A stretch of DNA of 64,000 nucleotides, taken from contig NC_072807.1 of assembly GCF_028583425.1 (NCBI RefSeq), positions 36,461,001-36,525,000 of the forward strand. Reading direction: 5' to 3'. The notes beneath the pieces are model-generated. The model was given only the letters and a program-made list of their open reading frames with translations, was not told where the DNA came from and did no database searches. This document shows positions 24,178-59,940 of this stretch, one piece after another (positions within the stretch are counted from its first letter, which is position 1; every line of letters begins with the position of its first letter). This DNA comes from Eublepharis macularius (Eukaryota > Chordata > Lepidosauria > Squamata > Eublepharidae). The position numbers were made by a program, and so were the translations under genes.

Positions 24178-30978
<6,801 letters not shown>

Positions 30979-31788
30979 CCCGTCCTCTGGATAGGACAGA
31001 GTTGAAGGGCAGGGGAGGAAAACAGGTGTGCTGTATATATTCAGGCCTACAAAAGATCTCATTTGCTTATAAGCATTTTGCCTGAGGGTTAGCCATAAAT
31101 CATATTTTAAAAAAAGTTTTCTTGGCATTGTCTCACTTGGGGAGGTTCCCTTTTCATGTCTACCCTGAATTTAGGAACGGAGGCACGAAAATGTACGAAT
31201 CCAGATCCAGTCCAAATGATGTCACTGTGAAAATACAGTAAACGTGCTGGCCGTGAACAATTACTCTTGACGTTTGGGAGCACGAGAAACCCAGTGATCT
31301 CACAAGCCATTCTGGTGCCTCGCTGCCTGGTTTCATTTTCGCAGGCAGTGGGAGGCAAGCTTGACTGAAAACAAAGAGTGACTCGCCGTGGGCAGATGTG
31401 TGTGTGATTGACCCCAAAAAGGAGAGGCAGCATCTGGAGTGAGGATCACGGAGTTGGGGAAGCTGCGTTTCATTGTATTCCCTGCACTCTTCCCCTGATT
31501 GGAAATCAGCAAGAAAAAAATCCAGGTTCTTGCTGACTTTCCCCCTCCTCTAGCAAAGTTCGTAGCCTCTAGGGAGAACATTTCCACTTAGAAGAACAGA
31601 TGGGAAAAGTGATTTCCCCTTCCTGTCCTTGCACTGACCCCAATCAAGACTGGACTCCCTGCAGCTGCTTTCAAACCCAAATTCCATATTTGGGGTTTTG
31701 ATTCCAGAATTCCTGCTTATTGAGTAATTAAGCACTGGAAGGGGCTTCACCTGTTCAGTCTGTGGCAGTAAAGAACTAAGTCTTGGGG

Positions 31789-33315
31789 GATTCGGTTTCG
31801 TTTTCTCAGCCATGCCGGACGCTCCTCTCGGCTGGTCCGGGAGGAAACGACCGGGCACCCTGACCGGGCGGCTGATCCGTAAGGATTAGCCCCCAGGACT
31901 CCCAGGGAGGGAGCCAGGGTCCGGGACGCGGCGGGAAGAACTCCCCGAAATCAATGCGGGGGGGGAATTGCCCGTTTGTCCCTATGGAGGCCGGCAGATG
32001 TGCGCGGCGCCTCGAGTGCCGCCGGGCAACGAGAAACGGCAAGTAAAAGAAACAGGCGGAAGCCTGTAAACAAGCGAATCCCTTCTGTTCTACAAGCGTT
32101 TGTGAAGGAGAGGTTGATCTGAAGAAGACTCGCTCTTCCCCTTCGTGGAGTTCCAGAATTTTGTTGGCGCCCCCCCCCCAAAATGGCAGCAAAGAAGCAA
32201 AGTCCCGCTCTCGGTAAGTCAATCTCGGCCACCTTGCAGAAAGGGGAGTCGCTCGAAGAGTTGGTGCGCAGGGCGGTGGTGGAAGCCATAAAACCCTTTG
32301 TTGACAAGCTGAACGAAACTGATCAAAGGGTGGGCTTAATTGAAAGCGAGGTGAAAACCATTAAGGCAGCAGCGGGGGGGGGGCAGAAAAGTCTGCTCTG
32401 GAAAGTGCGTCACTTGTGAAGGCTACAAAAAAGGAGCTGAAGTTGGTGGAGAACCAACTGATCGGGCTACAGGTGGAACGAACGCAGACAATTTTGCGTC
32501 TCCAAAACGTGAAAGAGGAGGAAAATGAGGATCTGTGGGATTTGGTCTCGGAACTACTGGCGACACCCGCGAGGACGACTAAAGAAGAGGTTAAAAGCGC
32601 CATTTTGGAGGTCCGTCGGGCTTCTTCAAAATATGCAACAAAGCGACAGTTGCCTCGTGAGATCATTATTGACTTTTCAACTAAAAAGATTCGGGACACC
32701 ATCCTATATAACTCATACAATGCGGATTTGGACTTTATGGGTTTGAAAATCAAGATTTTGAAGGACGTTCCATTTCTAGTCCGGAAACGGCGTTTTAAAT
32801 ATAAAAAGTTTGCAGCTCTTCTGAGGGACCATGGAATAAAGTACAAATGGTTATTCCCGGAAGGAATATGGTTCAGATATAAAGATCAGGCCTATAAGAT
32901 ATTATCAGAAGATCAACTAAAGGATTTTGAGAATAAAAACCCAGAACTCTGCTGCACCAAGAACGAAGAAAAGGAGGAGCCGGAGGGGGGGGGGGGGAGG
33001 AGGAGAGCATCGCAACAGCAGTTGCACAGAGAGAATTGCGTCCGGGACCTAGAAGGGGGAGGAAAGTTTAATCAGAATTTGAAATGTTTATTTTCTGTAT
33101 GATTAACCACTCCATCATTATTCCATGGAGCTATTTTTGTATTATGACAGTATGAAGGGAAACATTGAAGTGTAGTGTTTAGTGTTTGTAGTTCATTCCC
33201 CCCCCCTTTTTCTTTTTCCACCCCCCTTTGTCCTTTCCCTCTCCCCTTTCCTTGTGATAGTCTGGTGTAGTGTTTTGTAGTTATGAAAAATAAAAATATA
33301 TATATATATAAAAAA
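31789..33315 (+). mobile_element. ORF1-only L1-type LINE insertion
   Basis: A 1.5-kb insertion is bounded by a perfect 19-bp target duplication, AAAGAACTAAGTCTTGGGG, at 31770-31788 and 33316-33334. It has a CpG-rich 5' UTR of ~390 bp, an ORF1 from ATG 32183 to a stop at 33102, a short 3' UTR with a long pyrimidine tract, and an A-rich tail with (TA)n. There is no sequence for an endonuclease or reverse transcriptase. It resembles the ORF1-only HAL1 elements of mammals in organisation. Confidence 0.85.
32183..33102 (+). pseudogene. L1 ORF1p-like coding region with one frameshift
   Basis: The N-terminal part (MAAKKQSPALGKS... SLEELVRRAVVEAIKPFVDK) predicts a coiled coil. The frame shifts once in the G-run near 32371-32380 and continues as ATKKELKLVENQL. 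An RRM-like segment (ILRLQNVKEEEN) is followed by the L1 ORF1p C-terminal domain (LPREIIIDFSTKKIRDTILY, then LLRDHGIKYKWLFPEGIWFR). These match L1 ORF1 nucleic-acid chaperone proteins. The G-run shift may be real or a sequencing error. Confidence 0.8.
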
Positions 33316-38834: not shown

Positions 38835-38952
38835 GGGCCAAGCTACACATGACGAATGACACTTGAACGGCAAGTGTATTTCTCCCTGTTCACTTGCCCT
38901 CCACTCAATCCACTTGCCGTTCAAGTGTCATTCGTCATGTGTAGCTTGGCCC
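38835..38952 (-). mobile_element. 118-bp palindromic MITE (copy 8)
   Basis: Same family with the core inverted (TTTCTCCCTGTTCACTTGCC). Flanks TGA and TCA. Confidence 0.8.
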
Positions 38953-39084
38953 TCAGACATGCAGAAAGAAACACTCTATGCATATTTAAAAAGGAAAATC
39001 ACCCTCCTCTCTCCAGGGACAAAAATACACAGATAGATGCACAAAAGACAGAGTCATATAGTTCTAGTGTTAGAAGGGGTCTTA

Positions 39085-39202
39085 GGGCCAAGCTACAAGT
39101 GACAAATGACACTTGAACGGCAAGTGTATTTCTCCCTGTTCACTTGCCCTCCACTCAATCCACTTGCCAGGCAAGTGTCTTTCGTCATGTGTAGCTTGGC
39201 CC
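39085..39202 (-). mobile_element. 118-bp palindromic MITE (copy 9)
   Basis: Same family, core inverted; perfect 3-bp duplication TTA. Confidence 0.8.
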
Positions 39203-39216
39203 TTAGAGGTCATTGA

Positions 39217-39334
39217 GGGCCAAGCTACACATGACGAATGACACTTGAACGGCAAGTGTATTTCTCCCTGTTCACTTGCCCTCCACTCAATCCACTTGCT
39301 GTTCAAGTGTCATTCGTCATGTGTAGCTTGGCCC
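39217..39334 (-). mobile_element. 118-bp palindromic MITE (copy 10)
   Basis: Same family, core inverted; only 14 bases from copy 9. Flanks TGA and TCT. Confidence 0.8.
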
Positions 39335-39598
39335 TCTGTCCAACCCCCTGCTCAGTGCCGGAAATCCAAAGCCAGATGGCTGTTCAGGCTGACCTTAAAG
39401 ATCTCCATTGAGCGAGACTCTGCCCACCCCTGGCAACTGGTTCCGTTGTCAAACTCTCAGTAGATAGAAGATAAATAGAAATACAGTAGCTGGGATAACT
39501 TTCCAGAAAGCAGGTTTTTTTCAGAATCCTGGCAAGGGTAGAGAAACGGATTCAAGAACCGCCTCATGCTTATCAGCAGAGCAGTACAAAAAATATCA

Positions 39599-39711: not shown

Positions 39712-39775
39712 ATGACTCTTCATTTCAAGGCCATGCTTTTCATACTGATTCTTGCTTTCCCAAGAGAAATCACAG
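39712..39775 (+). CDS. Ig receptor exon 1 (signal peptide)
   Basis: ATG at 39712 opens MTLHFKAMLFILILAFPREI, a clear hydrophobic signal peptide. The exon ends ACAG|GTACGT in phase 1. A second in-frame Met lies at residue 8. Confidence 0.8.
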
Positions 39776-42700
39776 GTACGTGTCCTTCCAGAGATACTCG
39801 GCTTTGCTCTCTTGCTTTGATTTTCTTGGTTTAACAGTCTGCAAACCCTTGTGTGATGCAGTTTTGATTTCTTGAGGGAAGGGTTCTTGTGACACTTTAA
39901 AGATGAGTAATTTTTGTGGCATAAACCTCAGTAGATGCAAGAAGTGCATCTTCTCAGTTAGGAGTCATAGATATACACAATCATAGAGAAAAAATACAGT
40001 GTACTTAAAATGCCATCAAATGCCAGCTGAGGATATGCTTTATGCTTCTGATCATGTGACCTCTAATCCATGAAAATTTCTGTCTATCCCAATCAATCAA
40101 CTGTGTTTTCATCCCACCCTAACCACAAAGAACTCAGGGTGGTCCATTTTTATTTTACTTTACTTCACAGCCTGCTTTTCTCACTAAGACTCAATGTGGA
40201 TTGCAGAATATTCTTTCTTTATTACCATTCATTTGACCCAGTGGTCTCGAACAGCCACTGGATTGCAGAATAAAAAATAGTGCAATGAAGAGTGCAGTAG
40301 GACAAGGATCGCAGAATCAGAGACCAATGCAAGCAGCAAACTACCAAAGGAGAGCTATACCATTAATGCAACACGGAAGGTGGATTATGGTATACGCCAA
40401 TAAAGGTGATATCTGCAAAGATCCTTGCGGTGGATTGCAATCCTGTTCCATTATAAAGGAGCCCTCCAGGAGTGTTCTAATTTCTGATTGGGATCTCTGG
40501 CAGAGAGCTTTTAGCCACATCTCCAAACTACAATTCCCAGAAATCTTTATGGGATCCATCCAAGTCATGTGGTCTAAAACTGGTATCATAGGGAGAGTGG
40601 GGTTAACAGTTTCTGGATTTCAGGGACAAGGGGGAATCCTATTAAGAAAACTTGAAGTTTGGACCTTAGGATATCATTCATTCATGAAATCTTTTCACAG
40701 GGGCTACCTTCTTCCGCCAATTTGAGAATGGAAATCACAAGCTGAACTGCAGCCAATCGGCTACTGAATATGTTTGGTACAAAGGCCGTTCATGGTCCCT
40801 ACAACAATTTGAACCTATTAGTAGCACTCAAACCAAGGATTCTCAACAACGATGTGTGGAACGTTCACTTTGCCCCCAAAAGGTCTTACCCTATACTACT
40901 TTCTCTCTTGGTGGAATATTTGCATGTGCTCCCTGGACCCCCCTTTTTACTAATTATACCCATTGCAGCATTTCTGATTTCTACCTTGTCGCAATCAGAA
41001 ACCGTACAGCAGGTGAGAAACATCTTTACGGTATCTGACGTTTTTTGGGATGACTTTAGAGAACTTGGATGGCGTGAAGCTGAGACAGGACACCTGTTGG
41101 AAAGAATACTGTCCTTTTTCAGAGGGAGCAGGCGCATGCAGGTTGCAGAGATATGCAGCATGGAGGAGGGAAAAGAGCTGGGGCTCAGCACCTCTCAGTA
41201 TGGGGTTGTAGAGAGACAGTGTGGTGTCATAGTTAGAGTGTCAGGCTAAGATTTGGGAGGTCCATATTCAAATCCCCACTCTACTATGGAAGCTTGGCGG
41301 GTGACCTTGGGCCAGTCCAACACACACAGCCTAGTGTATAGCACAGGGCTGTTGAAAGGATAAAATGGAAGAGAGAAGAAAGATGTAAGTTGCTTTGGGT
41401 TCCCGTTGGGGAGGAATGCAGGGTGTAAATGAAGTAAATATTTATGATCAGGTGACAAAATGGGAGACCCAATCAGTCGAATTTTGGGCCAGGATGGGGC
41501 TGCTTATACGTGGACAGCTGATAGCATGATGACCTAGAGGTGACCTAGAAGTTAGTAAGTTCCTTTAATATAACCAGGGCTGGTGCCACCATCGAGGTGG
41601 TGAGGCGGGCGCCGCAGGCACTGGGGCGCTGAAGGGGGCACCAGGGGCAGAGGCACATGCCACAGAGCTGGTGTGCTTGGCCTGCAGCTGCTGCAGCTGG
41701 CCAGCCCCGCGCCGCTGCCGCCACCAACACATGCCCCCGGCCAGGAACAGCAGCCACGGGCCTGGCACGGCAGGCGTCCGGGGCGGTGTGCAGAACTTCC
41801 CCAGCCACCCACCGCGCCCAACTGGGAGCACAGGCAGCCTTCGCACGCTGTCCCAGCTGCCTGCCGGCCAATGGGCCCGGCTTGCTGCATGATGACATCA
41901 TCACGTATTGATGTCATCATGCAGGCCCAGGGCACGCACGCACGCATTGTGCGCATGCGCGCACACGTAGGGACAGCCGTGGGTGCCAGAAACCCTGGCA
42001 ACACCCCTGAATATAACCCATCTCTGTGATTCATGTCTTCATTCCGGGGTGCTTCAGCAAGAATTGTCCCGAAGAGGCAACTTTGCTTTTTAATTAATTT
42101 AATTTAATTTAATTTAATTTATTATATTTATATTCCGCCCTCCCCGCTTTCGCAGGCTCAGGGCGGATAACAAATACAAACATCATTAGGTGCAAGTCTC
42201 TGCAGAAATAATAGAGCAGCGTTTACGTGCACCTAGTCAGTAGTATGAGAGACGATTGCATAATCTTGGTTTATTTCATTTTGTATTGCAGAAAAGGAAG
42301 TCTTTGGTAACGTCACGGAATCATTGAAACCTGTTCTGGCAGTCAAAGAAAAAGGCAACTTCACCCTTTCCTGTGAAGTTGAAATTAAGCATAAATCCAA
42401 AACATTTGCCTTGTACTGGATTAAGGACACCAGTCCAAGCGCTTGTCTTCTTTCAGCTTCAAATGAAGGCAATCATGGGAGTAATTTGTCCTTTGATGTC
42501 AACTGCTGTGTGGATCCTACAGTCAAAGAAAGGAGAGACAATCATTCAGTAATCTCGGATGACAGGAAGATAAACCACACGCTTACGATCTTCAATGCCA
42601 CTTCTTCTGACAGCGGAATGTATTTGTGCGTGGTTACTGCTTGGGAACATAAACACGTGTGGAAGATTGCTTATAATGTGTCTATAGAAGTTGAGAATAC

Positions 42701-45700
42701 CTATAACATGTCCATAAATGCTGAGAATCCCACAACACTGTGTGAGTTTACAACTGCTAATGGAATCAGCTAGAGGGGACCCCTAAGTGCGTATGATGGC
42801 GAGCGAGGATGTCTCCTTTCCCCTTTCTTGCCACTTACTCTGCCCTCCTCCCAACTTTCGTCCCCCACCCCCTTGCCAAACTGGCTCTAGGTCCTCACAA
42901 GGAAGGAGAGAAACTGAAAAGGGGATTTAATTCCATGAGAAATATCCCTAGTTTCCACTTTAGTTTTCTTGCCTCCAGTCTCTGCTCAGGTGTCATTACA
43001 AAAAATCCAAGACTGAAAAAAATACTCCGAGAATTTCAACACTTACTACATTCTTACAGTGCAATCTTAAGTAGAGTTACTGTAGTCTACACCCATTGAT
43101 TTCAATGGGCTCAGACTGGAGTAACTCTGTTTAGGATTGCACTGATAGATCCTCATCGGAGGCATATTATTCACTGTAAAAACATTAATAAATAATTTGA
43201 AAACAATGCCTCACTCAACAAATACGATTAAATAGCTTTTTTGCCTGTGTATGTGTAATGTGCCATCAAGTCGCAGCCACCTTAGGCCGACCCCGTAGGG
43301 TTTTTAAGGCAAGTGGTGTTTGGAGATGGGTCACCAATGCAACCCTAGATTTCCTTGGAGGTCCCCCATCCGGCCAGCCCTGCTTATCTTCTGAGATCTG
43401 ATGAGACTGGGCTAGCCTATAGATGTAATATTATTTCTAACTCTCTTTTTAGCTCCCCCTTCTACAAACGCATTACCCATCTCCCTCGGAGTGATTGGAG
43501 GTGTAATTCTCATTTGTGGGATAATGTGGCTCCTTTACTGGAAGAAGAAGTCAAAAGGTAACCAAAGAAGAACAAGACAAAGTGAAACCCTAAGTGTATA
43601 ATTTGTAGAAGCAGTTGCGTACAGGAACTTCAAAATGCTCATTTATCTTTTACAGGAAATCCTGTCGAACGACTTGGAAGGTAATCTATTTGCTATACTT
43701 TTTCTTAGATTCCCCCCCCCCCCAGCCAGATAGAAATTATTCTAAATTCATTTGTTGTCTATTTTTATTTAGGAATCAGGCAGCAGTTGAAATGGAAGGA
43801 GATGAGTGTAAGCATAATATTTTTTTATTATTTCACTGGAAGCGCTGGCTCACGTCAATTATAAAGTAAAAGAAATGAAGTATAAATGAAGTATGAATAA
43901 ATGAACATAAAAAATTTAGAAAACTGCATGAGAGGTTCTCAACGAATATGTTGCAAAACACACCATGAATATGGACCAGGAAGCTGAATTCAGACTGTTA
44001 AAACTTTGAATCAGATTCAGTATGTCTTGTGCTAAATGCAGGCTTGGTATGGGGTGGAGGCCCTTTCCATTTAAATTTCTTTTTCTAAATGCTGTCGTTG
44101 GAAGCCTTTTTATTTTGAGTGTTTTCATCACTGCTATTCAAGATTTGCTTGTTTGGTTGTTGGGGGTTTTCCGGGCTGTATTGCCGTGGTCTTGGCATTG
44201 TAGTTCCTGACGTTTCGCCAGCAGCTGTGGCTGGCATCTTCAGAGGTGTAGCACCAAAAGACAGAGATCTCTCAGTGTCACAGTGTGGAAAAGATGTAGG
44301 TCATTTGTATCTACTCAGGAGGGGTGGGGTTGAGCTGAGTCATCCTGTAAGAGTTTCCCAGGGTGTGGAATGCTAATGGCGGGAGGCTTCACTGTATCCT
44401 GAGGAGGTTCTTTTGCATATGGATTGGTGCTTGATGTGCTAATCTTCTCTGCAGGGCTATTGTCGGGTGTGGAGTGTTTTGTTGGCCTGGTGTTTTTTCA
44501 GAACTGGAGCCCATGCTCTGTTCATTCTTAAGGTTTCTTCTTTCCTGTTGAAGTTTTGCTTATGCTTGTGAATTTCAATGGCTTCCCTGTGCAGTCTGAC
44601 AAAGTAGTTGGAAGTGTTGTCCAGTATTTTGGTGTCCTGGAATAAGATACTGTGCCCTGTTGTATTTTTCGGGTGGGTCTGAATACTGCTTGAAGGTTGT
44701 GCTTTTTCATAAGCTTTCCCATCTGATCAGTAATTCCTTTGATATATGGCAAAAACACTTTTCCTGTAGGTGACTGTTTTTCCTTGGTTGTTTGATTCAT
44801 CCTGGGTTTGATTGCTCTTCGGATTTCATTTCTGGAGTAGCCATTTGCCTGAAGTGCGTGGTTTAGATGATTAATTTCCTCATTGAGAAAGCGCGGCTCA
44901 CATATCCGTCTTGCACGATCCACTAATGTTTTCATTATGCCTCTTTTCTGTCGGGGGTGGTGATTGGAGTTTTTGTGTAAGTACCGATCAGTATGAGTTG
45001 GTTTCCTGTAGACCTTGTGACCTAACTGAAAGTTTGCTTTGCGGATGACCAAGGTATCCAGGAATGAGAGTTTTCCCTCACTTTCTTTCTCCATTGTGAA
45101 TTGTATGTTCAGGTGGATGTTGTTGGTGGATGTTCAGGTGGATGTTGTTGGATGTCAAGCAGTATTCAGACCCACCCGAAAAATACAACAGATGCTACGA
45201 TCAGCAAAAGACAGCAGAGACCCCCTTACCTCTGCAGGAGTATACCGTATACCCTGCAGCTGTGGACAAGTTTACATCGGGACCACAAAGCGTAGCATCC
45301 AGACAAGAATAAAAGAACATGAAAGACACTGCAGACTTGGACAGCCTGAAAAATCAGCAGTGGCTGAACATAGCCTAACTCAAACAGGGCACAGTATCTT
45401 ATTCCAGGACACCAAAATACTGGACAACACTTCCAACTACTTTGTCAGACTGCACAGGGAAGCCATTGAAATTCACAAGCATAAGCAAAACTTCAACAGG
45501 AAAGAAGAAACCTTAAGAATGAACAGAGCATGGGCTCCAGTTCTGAAAAACACCAGGCCAACAAAACACTCCACACCCGACAATAGCCCTGCAGAGAAGA
45601 TTAGCACATCAAGCACCAATCCATATGCAAAAGAACCTCCTCAGGATACAGTGAAGCCTCCCGCCATTAGCATTCCACACCCTGGGAAACTCTTACAGAA

Positions 45701-47874
45701 TGACTCAGCTCAACCCCACCCCTCCTGAGTAGATACAAATGACCTACATCTTTTCCACACTGTGACACTGAGAGATCTCTGTCTTTTGGTGCTACACCTC
45801 TGAAGATGCCAGCCACAGCTGCTGGCGAAACGTCAGGAACTACAATGCCAAGACCACGGCAATACAGCCCTGAAAACCCCCAACAACCATCGTTCTCCGG
45901 CCGTGAAAGCCTTCGACAATACATTTGCTTGTTTCTTAACATGTCATTTTTACTGCATTTAGTCGTTATATGTTATTTATTTGTAACTGAAATTTTAAAA
46001 GAGTTAAAAGTTCTGCTAAAGCTGAAAAAATTGTGCTTGATGGAACTGAAAATCATGCAAAAGTATGATTCAGAGTCCATTTACACAAAGGACAAATGAA
46101 AATGGAGTGTGTGTGTCTGTGTGTGTTCATGCGTGTTCAGGAATAACACATTTACCATACACATCAGGGAGCGGGAAGCACTGTGTTTTCCCACGTTACT
46201 CCCTACAATACCCTGACTGCAAGTTAAAAAAAAAATAGTGCATCAGGGGAAAAAGTTCTTGCTCAGTTTGGATTAGCTGAGAGCTGAGTTCCACTCTCAG
46301 GAAAATCGAGCAGTGGTATGAAGCTCTTCTCTTATCGACGCCCCTGTCTGGCTATCAGCTGGCCTGGCAGATGCTGAAGGAAGCTATCCTCAGGCTTGTG
46401 ATGGGGAGGGAAGGCGGTTGCACCCCCTTGTTCCTTCTCCTTCCCTGGGTCCAGCAGCACACTCCAGCTGTCTCATCCCTTGACGTCTCCTTTGGCCCTC
46501 ACAAGAACCTGCTTTTAAGGGATTCTCTTTCCCTTCTCCCTGGCTTTCCTCCCAACCCCCACCCAGCCTCCCTGATTAGTCCTTCTCGCAGCCTGTTCAG
46601 GCTTGAAGGGGGGGTTGCCTCTTCAGTCCCCCCCCCCAGCCTAAGACGGGGCATTGGCTCAGCTCTCTGCCTGGATTGTCCTGGCTGCTGCTGGAGCTTC
46701 CTCAGTGGCTCCCTTGGGAGTCTGGAGTCTGTGCCTACCCTGGTTGCCAAAGCACTCCTGGAGGCCTGGCTGGGACTGGGCTGCCTGTGCTGTTGCAGGG
46801 CAGAGGGTTGCTTGCTGCCCAGGGCTGGGTGTCGGTGGCTGCTGTTCCACTGCAGAAGGTGGCCTGGGCATTTGTGGAGGTGCCTGCAGCTGCGGGGCTG
46901 ACAGAGGGACCAGGGCAGGGCTTGGGGAAGATGCCTGCTGTGCAGTGCCAGTGGGGGTGGTGGAATGGAGAACAGCATTTCTGGACAAGTAATAGAGTTG
47001 CCAGGTCCCCTTACCATCCCAACAGGAGGGGGAGGACCCAGCACTTACCTTCTCATTGCTCTCAGTGTTCTCCCATGCCTGTGTGATGACATCACTTCCA
47101 GGAAGTGACATCATTGTGCATGCTTGGGAGCACACATGTGTTCTCTCAGTGGGCCAATCTGAGGGCCAAGCTACACATGATGAATGACACTTGAACGGCA
47201 AGTGGATTTAGTGGAGGGCAAGTGAACAGGGAGAAATACACTTGCTGTTCAAGTGTCATTCGTCATGTGTAGCTTGGCCCTGAGCCCCAATTAGCCTGCT
47301 CTCATGGCAGTGTGATAATGTAATTCCTGGGAAGTGATGTCATCATGCTGCACTGCAAGTCTGCCCGGGACCCCTGTTCCCCCACCTTCCCCTAGGTGAG
47401 TGGTGGTGGTGGTGGGTGGAGGGTGGAAGCAGGGAATCTCCGGCCCCCACCGAGGGAATGGGATCCCTACAAGTCCCATTCCACATTGCATGCTGGTGTT
47501 TATTTGAAGCAGTCATATTTCTGAATACTGATCGGTAGAAAAGATAGGGACAGAACGATGTATGGCTTAGCTTTGAAATGAAAAATCCTTTCTTTTAGTG
47601 TCCCAATTTAAAAGCCAAAAGAGTTAACTTTTAATTTGCTTGTTTTAAACTTATTTTGGTTTTAATTCTTAGGATTCAAACTCTTTCTTGGACTTCTTTT
47701 GCTCTTACAGGCTCCCCATATGCAGTAAGCAGCCGGAATGATATAGACAGGATTGAACCTGTGTATTCATTGGTGACAGCGCCCAGAAAAGGCATCTCTT
47801 CGTTACCGGATGGCAAACCAACTTCTGAACCTGGAGAGAAAGTGCATACCGTCTATGCTGTGGTGACTAAATAG
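39712..47874 (+). CDS. Unnamed two-Ig-domain type I membrane receptor with ITSM-like tail
   Basis: Seven exons splice in frame: 39712-39775, 40701-41012, 42292-42741, 43453-43557, 43656-43680, 43773-43807 and 47711-47874, giving 384 residues. All introns are GT-AG; the first four are phase 1, as is usual for Ig-superfamily receptors. Residues 1-22 are a signal peptide (AMLFILILAFP). Exon 2 is an Ig-like domain (KLNCSQ...YVWYKG...GIFACAPW). Exon 3 is a V-type domain (FTLSCEV...LYWIKD...DSGMYLCVV) with extra cysteines and many N-glycosylation sequons. Exon 4 is the transmembrane helix (ISLGVIGGVILICGIMWLLYW, then KKK). The tail has Tyr at about 334, 349 and 379; TVYAVV at 377-382 fits the ITSM pattern TxYxx(V/I), and PVYSLV resembles it. 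Exon layout and tail recall SLAM/CD2-family receptors, but the V domain is membrane-proximal, so I do not assign a family. It probably acts as a leukocyte surface receptor (inference). Confidence 0.82.
40701..41012 (+). CDS. Ig receptor exon 2 (first Ig-like domain)
   Basis: This 312-nt exon, phase 1/1, follows TTTTCACAG and ends ACAGCAG|GTGAGA. It encodes an atypical Ig-like domain: Cys in KLNCSQ, Trp in YVWYKG, a CVERSLC pair, then GIFACAPW and YTHC. The usual DxGxYxC motif is absent. Confidence 0.8.
41212..41445 (+). mobile_element. Sauria-type tRNA SINE
   Basis: CAGTGTGGTGTCATAGTTAG, CAAATCCCCACTC and GGCTGTTGAAAGGATAAAAT, ending in a LINE-like tail. In intron 2 of the Ig receptor gene. 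Confidence 0.7.
41575..42009 (+). mobile_element. GC-rich non-autonomous hAT element, family D
   Basis: CAGGGCTGGTGCC to GGCAACACCCCTG; perfect 8-bp duplication AATATAAC (41567-41574, 42010-42017). The GC-rich interior creates several overlapping open frames with no protein similarity. It lies in intron 2 of the Ig receptor gene. Confidence 0.83.
42091..42190 (-). repeat. (AATTT)n with LINE/SINE 3' tail
   Basis: AATTTAATTT repeats precede TATATTTATATTCCGCCCTC and GGCTCAGGGCGGATAAC, a typical reverse-oriented reptile retroposon tail. A similar tail is at 25235-25400. Confidence 0.6.
42292..42741 (+). CDS. Ig receptor exon 3 (V-type Ig domain)
   Basis: This 450-nt exon, phase 1/1, follows TATTGCAG and ends CACTGT|GTGAGT. 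The domain has the B-strand Cys (LSCEV), core Trp (LYWIKD) and F-strand DSGMYLC. Extra Cys residues (SACLL, NCCVD) and eight or more NxS/T sequons are visible. Confidence 0.85.
43050..43145. mobile_element. Small terminal-inverted-repeat element, AGTGCAATC ends
   Basis: AGTGCAATCTTAAGTAGAG faces GTTTAGGATTGCACT around CCCATTGATTTCAATGGGC. Degenerate relatives lie near 16945-17035 and 35405-35490. Confidence 0.6.
43250..43425 (-). mobile_element. 5S-rRNA-derived SINE (reverse)
   Basis: GGAGGTCCCCCATCC, CTGAGATCTGATGAGA and CATCAAGTCGCAGCC; just upstream of the transmembrane exon of the Ig receptor gene. Confidence 0.65.
43453..43557 (+). CDS. Ig receptor exon 4 (transmembrane segment)
   Basis: This 105-nt exon, phase 1/1, has acceptor TTTTTAG and donor AAAAG|GTAACC. 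It encodes a hydrophobic helix, GVIGGVILICGIMWLLYW, with a basic stop-transfer KKKSK. Confidence 0.85.
43656..43680 (+). CDS. Ig receptor exon 5 (micro-exon, cytoplasmic)
   Basis: This 25-nt exon lies between TTTTACAG and GGAAG|GTAATC and encodes GNPVERLG. It shifts the phase from 1 to 2; the next exon restores phase 1. Confidence 0.65.
43773..43807 (+). CDS. Ig receptor exon 6 (micro-exon, cytoplasmic)
   Basis: This 35-nt exon has acceptor TTATTTAG and donor GAGT|GTAAGC and encodes RNQAAVEMEGDE. It keeps the frame open into exon 7. Confidence 0.65.
44198..44250 (-). ncRNA. Hammerhead-ribozyme-like motif in the Penelope tail (left copy)
   Basis: The minus strand repeats the CTGAAGA / stem / GAAACGTC arrangement of the right copy, with the CTGAAGA box at 44237-44243. 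Confidence 0.45.
45795..45840 (+). ncRNA. Hammerhead-ribozyme-like motif in the Penelope tail (right copy)
   Basis: CTGAAGA (45800-45806) fits the CUGANGA core. It is followed by a stem (GCCAGC...GCTGGC), then GAAA and CGTC (45827-45834). Penelope-like elements are known to carry hammerheads with very short stem III. The inverted left copy has the same motif at about 44200-44250 on the minus strand. Confidence 0.5.
46300..47160. other. GC-rich intronic block, no gene recognised
   Basis: Several overlapping open frames of 110-180 codons exist here on both strands because stop codons are rare in GC-rich DNA. None shows family motifs, and none is flanked by convincing splice sites. AGTTGCCAGGTCCCC and GAAGTGACATCA near 46990-47110 look repeat-derived. 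Confidence 0.5.
47163..47280 (+). mobile_element. 118-bp palindromic MITE (copy 11)
   Basis: Same family; perfect 3-bp duplication TGA. It lies in the last intron of the Ig receptor gene. Confidence 0.8.
47711..47874 (+). CDS. Ig receptor exon 7 (tyrosine-motif tail, stop)
   Basis: After CTCTTACAG this exon encodes 54 residues ending VHTVYAVVTK and TAG. Three Tyr motifs are present: SPYAVS, EPVYSLV and HTVYAVV, the last a match to the ITSM consensus. AATAAA follows at 47879-47884 and again at 48108-48113. Confidence 0.82.
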
Positions 47875-48107
47875 AGAAAATAAAATCTTCTGCTTGCAAC
47901 CAAATTTGCTTTTGAATATGTCTGTCCATCCTCTAAAATTAAAGGATGCCCTTTGATTTTCAAATAATTTTAATCCATAGAAATTTGATTTGCATACAAG
48001 AGAATCCACCAAGGTTTTTGAATCAGGTGACTGGCTAGTTAAAACAACCAGCCAGATGCCTCAGTTTCACCAGGACAGGGCAGGCATCATTTAAATATGT
48101 GACTAGA

Positions 48108-57479: not shown

Positions 57480-59940
57480 TGCCCCTAGAACAAATAGATA
57501 AGTGGGAGGAAGAGAGTGAAGGCACGTGAAAGTCAAGTTTAAATAACATGGAGGTGAATGAAAGAGCTTTGAAAGAATGAGTCTGCATTAAAAAACACAC
57601 ACACCTTGACACAAGATGGCTATTTGCTATCCAAATGGCTGTGCAAGTCCCCCTCGTGAGATGTATCCCTTATTCATTTCTGAATTCATTAAACCACGAA
57701 CTGTTTTGCACTTATCTTGCCTCTCGGTGAAGACTACTGTATAAAATTGCATTTCGCAACCAGTGTATTTAGATGGAAGATACTCCGGGGTTCCTGAAAG
57801 TCATTGATAGGGTTATTATGCAAGCAAAAATTCTGGGGAAGGCACGGCACGCTATCTTGCTAAGCGTCCTGGAGACAGATTTCTTATGAGGTTGTTTGGA
57901 AATGTTCAGGCAATGACATGTCCTGTGTTGATGTTGACAAATGTGTTACTTTTTAGACAACATTGTAGGCTGGCGGCGGCTTGGAAAATGAGGAGTGAGC
58001 GCACTATACCTTCTCAAGGTGATTACTGAGGACGCAGCTGGGGTATTAACACCTTCCTTGGTTTGCTTTTTTTCCTGACTGTCACTTGGTTTTTATTTTG
58101 GGGTGTTTGTTTTCCCAGTTTTGCCAGGGCTTTTGGTTTCATCTATGGAAACCAAACTGTGCTTGAATTCCAATTTGATTGCCAATTGAGAACGGCATCT
58201 CATAAACACTCATAAACATACCAACACTTTTTATTCATCTAAATAGGATCATAAAGACTTTGCGCATGTGTGGCTTTTGGGAACTGGGGTTCCTCAGTGT
58301 GTGCCTGGGCATGTTCTGCATTGCTTAGGCGACTATGCGCATCATACGTCCAAATGCCGGGCCCCGTGATCCCAAACACACTATAACAGCAGCTAGTTCC
58401 TGCTGCCTAGGGTGCTGCTAATTGCAGCTGAAATCCAGCCACCTTCCAAACAGCAAGCATGCTAGGAAAAAAAAATTAAAGATTAGCAAACCATCAATAT
58501 GAAGCTAAAGGGTACCTGACTCACAAGAAAATTAGTATCATTACTTCCCTGGAGGATAGACACCAGAGAAACACATACTGCTCACCAGAAAGAGAGACAG
58601 AGGACAAAATCACTATGCTATCGGAGATTGAATCCCCAACAGGATCGATCTCTCAGGATATCGCTCAAACGAACAAGCAGATCAATCAAAAATAGTAATA
58701 AATGACCCGAGTAAGTGTCTAAATGTCACACAAGGGGGCAGCACTGAACCACAGATTCTTTCTTTGCCCGTTGCAGGTCCTGGAGCATCCTGTAATTTGG
58801 GATCGCAAATGAAAACATTTAGTGCACATCCCACGGCCATGAGACGATCTTCAAAATGAAAGGCCACGGATGAGGGAAACACCAAGGGCTTCTTAAGGGC
58901 CGGACTCGATCTGCCTCTTGATTGTCGATCTGCGCTTTCTTTTCCTTTTTGTTATGTGCCATGCGCTGTTTTTTTTTAAAAATAATGTAATTCCATTCAA
59001 TTCTGACCACAGCGTTTCAGAGCAAATGATATGAAAGCTGGTAGTCACATCAAGGACACATTTCCTCTTTGGGCTTTGAGCGTACGTTCTGAAGCCGCCT
59101 TCCTTTGAAGCAAGCGCCACAGAAATAAATTGGGCTTGCCTCTCAGGAAATGGGTTCAAGATCAGGACTCACGACTAATTTGTCAGCTTTTGAATCCCGT
59201 GTTCAGAGTGCCGCTGAAAACCCCTTTTGGGTATTTTGATAGATCTATCACCAGCTGCATTACATTCTTAGTGGTACACAAAAAGAAATCGGGAGGATTC
59301 ACAGTGGTGTATTTTGAGGCTTTCGGTGTTCTTCCATTCTGTTTTGCTTTGAAGAACGATTCTCCGTGTTATTTGGAATGAGCTGCTAGAGTGCTTCAGA
59401 CTGGGGTGGGTGGGGGATATATTTTGATTAGTGCATTTTAAAAATGTATCGCCTGCCTTTACTGAGACATATTTGAGGAAGCTAACAATGAAGTTATTTA
59501 AAAAAACAATCAAAATTCGGTAAAACAGTACAATAAAAAAAACTCCCACCACCTATAAAGTCAGCCCACACTTAGCGCTCATAAAACCACCAGCCAACCG
59601 AAGCAGAACGAAACATTTCTTAAGAGCGAGCCGTAAACACATCAAATGGACAGAACACAGCCTGTGAAATAGAAAACAAGACACATGAAAAGATGGAATA
59701 CAACTTGAATTAAACACTTAGGCAAAGGGAAATGCTTTAATTTGGTGCCTAAATGCCAGCAGAATAGGCACAAGGCAAACCTCAAGGGACAGAGGACTTC
59801 AAAAGAGGTGCCACCACCAAGAAAGTCCTGCTTCTTGTTGCCACCTGCCTCACTTTCAGACACCAGGAAGAGGGGGGGGCACACAGGAAAAGGTTTGAGA
59901 TGTATGGGATCATGGGAGGAAGAGAATGGAGAGGAGCCCT
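57480..59940. other. Intergenic, no gene seen
   Basis: Mostly unique AT-rich sequence. I looked for TBC1D2B exons, expected beyond SH2D7 by human synteny, and found none. Confidence 0.4.

Follow-up and report, generated by a model that had tools for sequence, protein, structure and literature searches.

Background

A 64,000-nucleotide stretch of the Eublepharis macularius genome (NC_072807.1, positions 36,461,001 to 36,525,000; hereafter the window, part of the 41-Mb contig C18) carries at positions 39712-47874 a seven-exon gene whose predicted product looks like an immunoglobulin (Ig) receptor with an immunoreceptor tyrosine-based switch motif (ITSM) in its tail. SH2D7 lies before it on the opposite strand, and the next gene found downstream, beyond the window, encodes an alpha-7-type nicotinic receptor.

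Because work on checkpoint receptors is mostly mammalian, receptors missing from mammals are easily overlooked. If true, reptile immunity would gain a checkpoint-type molecule, an intact ITSM receptor whose outer domain is unassigned, and the position of the gene between SH2D7 and a nicotinic receptor offers a concrete way into the question of whether mammals lost it, and by what route. It would be ordinary if it proved instead to be a named receptor's orthologue that has drifted. Our comparisons covered the animal's own 2.24-Gb genome, PDB chains and Pfam models; the genome searches with exons score the best candidates only.

Results

Seven exons on the plus strand, with AG/GT borders, join into 1155 nt encoding 384 amino acids and a stop, and the joined frame runs across all 384 codons without a stop or frameshift. 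A first-pass annotation had proposed that these exons splice in frame into a protein with a signal peptide, two Ig domains, a transmembrane helix and a tail. Splicing and frame bear this out, with six junctions rather than the seven it had counted. The features are listed below, with splice sites ranked among 4467 AG or 3305 GT sites.

39712..39775, + strand: exon 1, start codon and signal peptide MTLHFKAMLFILILAFPREIT(G), the latter judged by eye; donor CAG/gtacgt, phase out 1
40701..41012, + strand: exon 2, atypical Ig-like domain D1, residues 22-126; 312 nt open, phase 1-1; C38, W47, GxFxC97
42292..42741, + strand: exon 3, V-set Ig domain D2 and stalk, residues 126-276, phase 1-1
43453..43557, + strand: exon 4, end of the stalk, transmembrane helix, basic stop-transfer
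43656..43680, + strand: exon 5, short tail exon of 25 nt; acceptor in the top 6 of 4467, donor 73 of 3305
43773..43807, + strand: exon 6, short tail exon of 35 nt; acceptor in the top 19 of 4467, weak donor, 149 of 3305
47711..47874, + strand: exon 7, signalling tail with Y334, Y349 and ITSM Y379 (TVYAVV), stop codon; acceptor in the top 3 of 4467
47879..47884, + strand: AATAAA hexamer, a possible polyadenylation signal read directly, beginning 5 nt past the stop codon

The exon ends have phases 1, 1, 1, 1, 2 and 1. Leader, Ig1, Ig2 and transmembrane exons are all joined at phase 1, the Ig and transmembrane exons forming symmetrical phase 1 units, and the frame is kept with or without exons 5 and 6, which together measure 60 nt. 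As a chance control, the whole window was scanned with a splice-site table for phase 1-1 exons of 290-480 nt whose splice scores were at least those of the weaker of exons 2 and 3. The two candidates on the plus strand were exons 2 and 3 themselves, and 20 shuffles of that strand yielded one candidate in all (mean 0.05). The minus strand held three, one in the last exon of SH2D7 and two overlapping at 1017-1349.

Exon 3 alone matches the Pfam V-set model at 2.2e-9, and the full protein does so at 6.8e-8. C153 and C238 stand at the canonical positions of this domain, accompanied by extra cysteines C177, C197 and C198, whose positions were assigned by eye. Its PDB matches are generic Ig domains, the best being ROBO2 (1.5e-5) and NCAM1 (5.3e-5), with CD226 at 0.02. 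Exon 2 matched no Pfam family at E<=10, and none of its four PDB matches was an Ig domain (best 0.052). It nevertheless has a B-strand cysteine ([hydrophobic]xC), a tryptophan and GxFxC at Ig-like spacing, a pattern picked post hoc, after exon 2 had been viewed, and reached in 11 of 20,000 shuffles; among the 89 frames of at least 100 amino acids in the window, exon 2 is the only one that has it. C38 and C97, at the B and F positions, probably form a disulfide. The annotation was right that the first Ig domain is atypical and that the V domain is membrane-proximal, a layout unlike SLAM, and the matches in Pfam and PDB are generic Ig ones only.

The transmembrane helix (hydropathy 2.48 at residues 285-303) is devoid of charged residues, so the receptor would not be expected to need an adaptor with an immunoreceptor tyrosine-based activation motif. 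It is followed by a cytoplasmic tail of 80 residues. The ITSM consensus, TxYxxV/I, binds SHP1/SHP2 and SH2D1A/SH2D1B, and the immunoreceptor tyrosine-based inhibitory motif (ITIM) has the consensus S/I/V/LxYxxI/V/L (PMC8631942; this and the other articles are cited from excerpts). Three tyrosine motifs had been claimed for the tail. The last, TVYAVV at Y379, is a strict ITSM, the only one among the three tyrosines; Y334 (SPYAVS) fits no motif and Y349 (PVYSLV) departs from the ITIM consensus at -2. BTLA requires both its motifs and SHP-2 recruitment by PD-1 is best with both (PMC8631942). Given the off-consensus Y349, two-site recruitment of SHP-2 is not assured for the gecko protein. As DNA, TVYAVV is common, its degenerate sequence occurring at 23 places in the genome, compared with 58 for a reversed control. 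The protein combines two features of the receptor class, type I topology with an Ig domain (a V-set domain and one transmembrane helix) and a cytoplasmic TxYxxV/I.

Searches of the genome with exons 2, 3 and 7 returned only weak matches and no second copy of the gene. Exon 7 matched nothing besides itself, exon 2 itself and ten weak places, and exon 3 itself and four weak places, of which the best, at C3:127.91 Mb, reaches 44 % over 41 residues (E 0.015). When the C3:127.91 Mb exon was searched in its turn, 18 places were found, including 13 V exons on C3 (127.4-128.0 Mb, itself among them), two places on C1 and one each on C2 and C14. Exon 3 ranked eleventh of the 18 (E 0.0118, 42 residues), ahead of five V exons from those loci. 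The F-G loops of many V exons in the C3 group read VTEW, SEWV or EEWL, and by these loops we take the group to be probable EWI/CD101-type genes. The EWI-type proteins of the Ig superfamily are CD101, IGSF3, PTGFRN and IGSF8.

Both F-G tryptophans are invariant in an alignment of exon 3 with eight EWI-like V exons, which left out four other members of a twelve-exon profile. Three of those four do not have the first F-G tryptophan, and since 3 of 12 EWI-like exons are without it, the loop is not a strict hallmark. Against the twelve-exon profile exon 3 scores 30.1 bits (27.6 for the best stretch), well below the 57.4-115.4 bits of all twelve members when left out, and for this reason it does not look like a plain member of the group. 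Two other V domains of the same loci scored 30.8 and 37.4, one I-set domain 15.6 and the best of 1000 shuffles 7.6; all V-set domains scored besides exon 3 came from the EWI-like loci, and the closeness may be general V-set likeness. Exon 3 therefore resembles the EWI-like group, through a likeness that may be partly general.

Among the weak matches of exon 2, an open stretch on the minus strand at C19:5297317-5297439 (L016) matches 38 residues in the second half of D1 at 47 % identity (E 0.43). As a paralogue of D1 it was rejected, since no donor site where the match ends and no upstream half-domain were seen in the surrounding 30 kb. On the same strand of these 30 kb, five frames match loose patterns (two Ig-like, three ITSM-like), none of them exon-like by eye. 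We treat the match as chance, a decayed fragment being the other possibility. An alignment of D1 with locus L010, equalled by 1 of 500 shuffles, was set aside, as it paired a C strand with an F-G loop.

SH2D7 occupies 24178-31128 on the minus strand (joined SH2 exons, PF00017, 3.2e-18), and a CIB2 exon lies at about 10.79 kb of the window (3.4e-27). The neighbourhood of SH2D7 had been thought meaningful for an ITSM receptor, a suggestion that is not supported. The closest PDB relative of its SH2 domain is HSH2D (1.6e-21), and SH2D7 is classed with SH2D2A and HSH2D, apart from SAP (PMC9783222). Since it is not SAP-type, its adjacency is uninformative on signalling, and for a role of SH2D7 in the receptor's signalling there is no evidence beyond adjacency. 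SH2D7 is among the tuft-cell genes common to sheep and mouse (PMC8646091). As a separate observation, its own last exon encodes an ITSM-type string, TVYSEI, at 24871-24888 on the minus strand.

Strict scanning for splice sites over the 90 kb past the window located the nicotinic receptor at C18:36560684-36591248 on the plus strand (99684-130248 relative to the window; L029-L032). The locus had earlier been placed between SH2D7 and TBC1D2B, which was not confirmed: TBC1D2B was not found in the window and 110 kb around it with four TBC1D2B motifs. One motif, LNPFP, matched one frame at 58896-59168 on the minus strand and was taken as chance, as the rest of the frame looked unrelated. Genome-wide there are 84 TBC-domain matches; the three on C18, unnamed, lie near 39.80 Mb and are the nearest found on this chromosome, about 3.3 Mb away. 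In human, SH2D7 presumably lies between TBC1D2B and CIB2, with CHRNA7 far away on 15q13; if so, the order of genes in gecko and human breaks at the place of this gene. The nicotinic exons agree with human alpha-7 at 63 of 70 residues (counted on the printed alignment), and two related loci, on C1 and C8, show 56-59 % in one exon and 79-80 % in the next. The three loci fit the CHRNA7/8/11 triplet of lizards (PMC6354393).

Several mobile elements lie in and around the gene. At about 44160-45890 in intron 6, inverted repeats noted by eye enclose an open frame (45039-45728) whose GIY-YIG-like match (T5orf172, 0.0091) stays below the cut-off; we read this element as Penelope-like. Near-identical palindromic elements, GGGCCAAGCTACACATGACGAATGACACTTGAACGGCAAGTG and its complement, flank the gene at about 38840-38960, 39090-39335 and 47150-47280 (by eye) and are probably miniature inverted-repeat transposable elements. 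An open frame at 32416-33102 has an L1 ORF1 match below the cut-off (Transposase_22, 0.002).

Discussion

We estimate at about 0.6 the probability that the gene is real and intact and encodes a leukocyte-type orphan receptor of type I topology, whose ITSM tail dampens or switches signalling. Read from the sequence itself are the seven-exon frame, the V-set D2, the Ig-like signature of D1, the uncharged transmembrane helix and the strict ITSM at Y379. In the mechanism we propose, D1, D2 or both would bind a cell-surface or soluble ligand, and ligation would lead a Src-family kinase to phosphorylate Y379 and the ITIM-like Y349, 30 residues before it. The phosphorylated pair could then recruit SHP-2, or Y379 alone a SAP-type SH2 protein, and signalling in a haematopoietic cell would be dampened or switched. 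It may well be that orthologues are already listed in other collections under uncharacterised proteins.

Several points count against this interpretation. The receptor is known here from DNA alone, and three of its splice sites are weak: for the donors of exon 3 and exon 6, 183 and 149 of 3305 GT sites score as well, and for the acceptor of exon 2, 250 of 4467 AG sites do. The off-consensus Y349 is a weak link for recruitment of SHP-2 by a pair of motifs, and among shuffled tails 2.2 % contain TxYxx[VI]. The pattern chosen for D1 misses exon 3, whose V-set identity is secure, because the spacing there is wider. Finally, single-sequence AlphaFold2 models are poor, with a mean predicted local distance difference test score of 37.2 for D1 and 43.4 for D2.

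The weak donors of exons 3 and 6, together with the transposon in intron 6, would also suit a gene that is decaying or not expressed and has kept its open frame so far, an explanation we find improbable for 384 codons that hold neither stop nor frameshift. More serious, if still doubtful in our judgement, is a drifted orthologue of a named receptor, of CD101/EWI, CD226 or VISTA type, that sequence search has missed. The EWI-like exon as best non-self match of D2, the rank of D2 above five V exons in that exon's own search, the two F-G tryptophans common to D2 and eight EWI-like exons, and CD226 among the PDB matches all lean this way. So does the Foldseek list for D2, headed by VISTA, CTLA-4 and CD160, except that all its 357 PDB matches at E<=10 come from a poor model and none reaches E<=0.001; we consider models and list uninformative. 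On the other side, the pairwise EWI-like match spans just the 41-42 residues that end the domain, D2 falls far short of every left-out member in profile score, 3 of 12 EWI-like exons have no first F-G tryptophan, and with a single I-set domain as outside control the closeness may be general V-set likeness. A SLAM-family receptor signalling via SAP would account for two Ig exons, type I topology and the terminal TVYAVV; a cysteine pair placed as B-F in D1, a V-set D2 and the presence of one strict ITSM make it very improbable against the definition of that family (PMC11012012).

Beyond the orphan receptor that we favour, one may tentatively imagine a separate lineage of reptile ITSM receptors that pairs an EWI-like V domain with an unrecognised Ig-like domain. 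On this rather unlikely proposal, the gene at the SH2D7/alpha-7 break would have been lost from mammals with that rearrangement, and might play an inhibitory or switch role in a mucosal or leukocyte lineage that in mammals operates without such a receptor.

Comparison with known receptor families

The open-licence PubMed Central papers listed by our searches showed no description of an Ig receptor gene at the SH2D7 locus. Among known families, the EWI type supplies the best genome match of D2 and has in common with it the CxVTxW...W F-G loop, present in eight of twelve or more EWI-like exons. EWI-type proteins carry several V domains in an array and a short tail, whereas here there are two Ig exons, the first encoding a D1 that is unrelated, and the tail is 80 residues long and bears an ITSM. 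The D2 profile score is also far below that of members.

The V domains of PD-1 and CD28 have an extra cysteine pair, a likeness to D2. A V-set domain joined to an ITIM/ITSM-type tail recalls the same family, in which PD-1 and CD28HL3 have such tails (PMC11599192). CD28 family members are described as having a single extracellular V domain, most with proline motifs (EIP, PPP or related) in complementarity-determining region 3 (PMC11599192), whereas the gecko gene has two Ig-type exons and a D2 loop that reads CVVTAWEHKHVWK. According to the same excerpt, PD-1 also has no conserved prolines there, so this loop does not exclude a PD-1-like origin.

SLAM receptors have an N-terminal V-like domain without a disulfide, a C2 domain with two disulfides and several ITSMs (PMC11012012). 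Two Ig exons, type I topology and a TVYxxV motif are common ground. In contrast, D1 carries C38/C97 at the B/F positions and has no V-set match, the membrane-proximal exon 3 is best matched by V-set rather than C2, and a single strict ITSM is present. Reptile CEACAM1 is likewise an Ig superfamily receptor with an ITIM/ITSM tail (PMC13278318, preprint), but here the leader is confined to exon 1, exon 2 is not V-set and the V domain lies next to the membrane. The gecko protein looks like an ITSM receptor in kind, one that falls outside SLAM, CD28 and reptile CEACAM1 by the features compared and outside the EWI type by its architecture.
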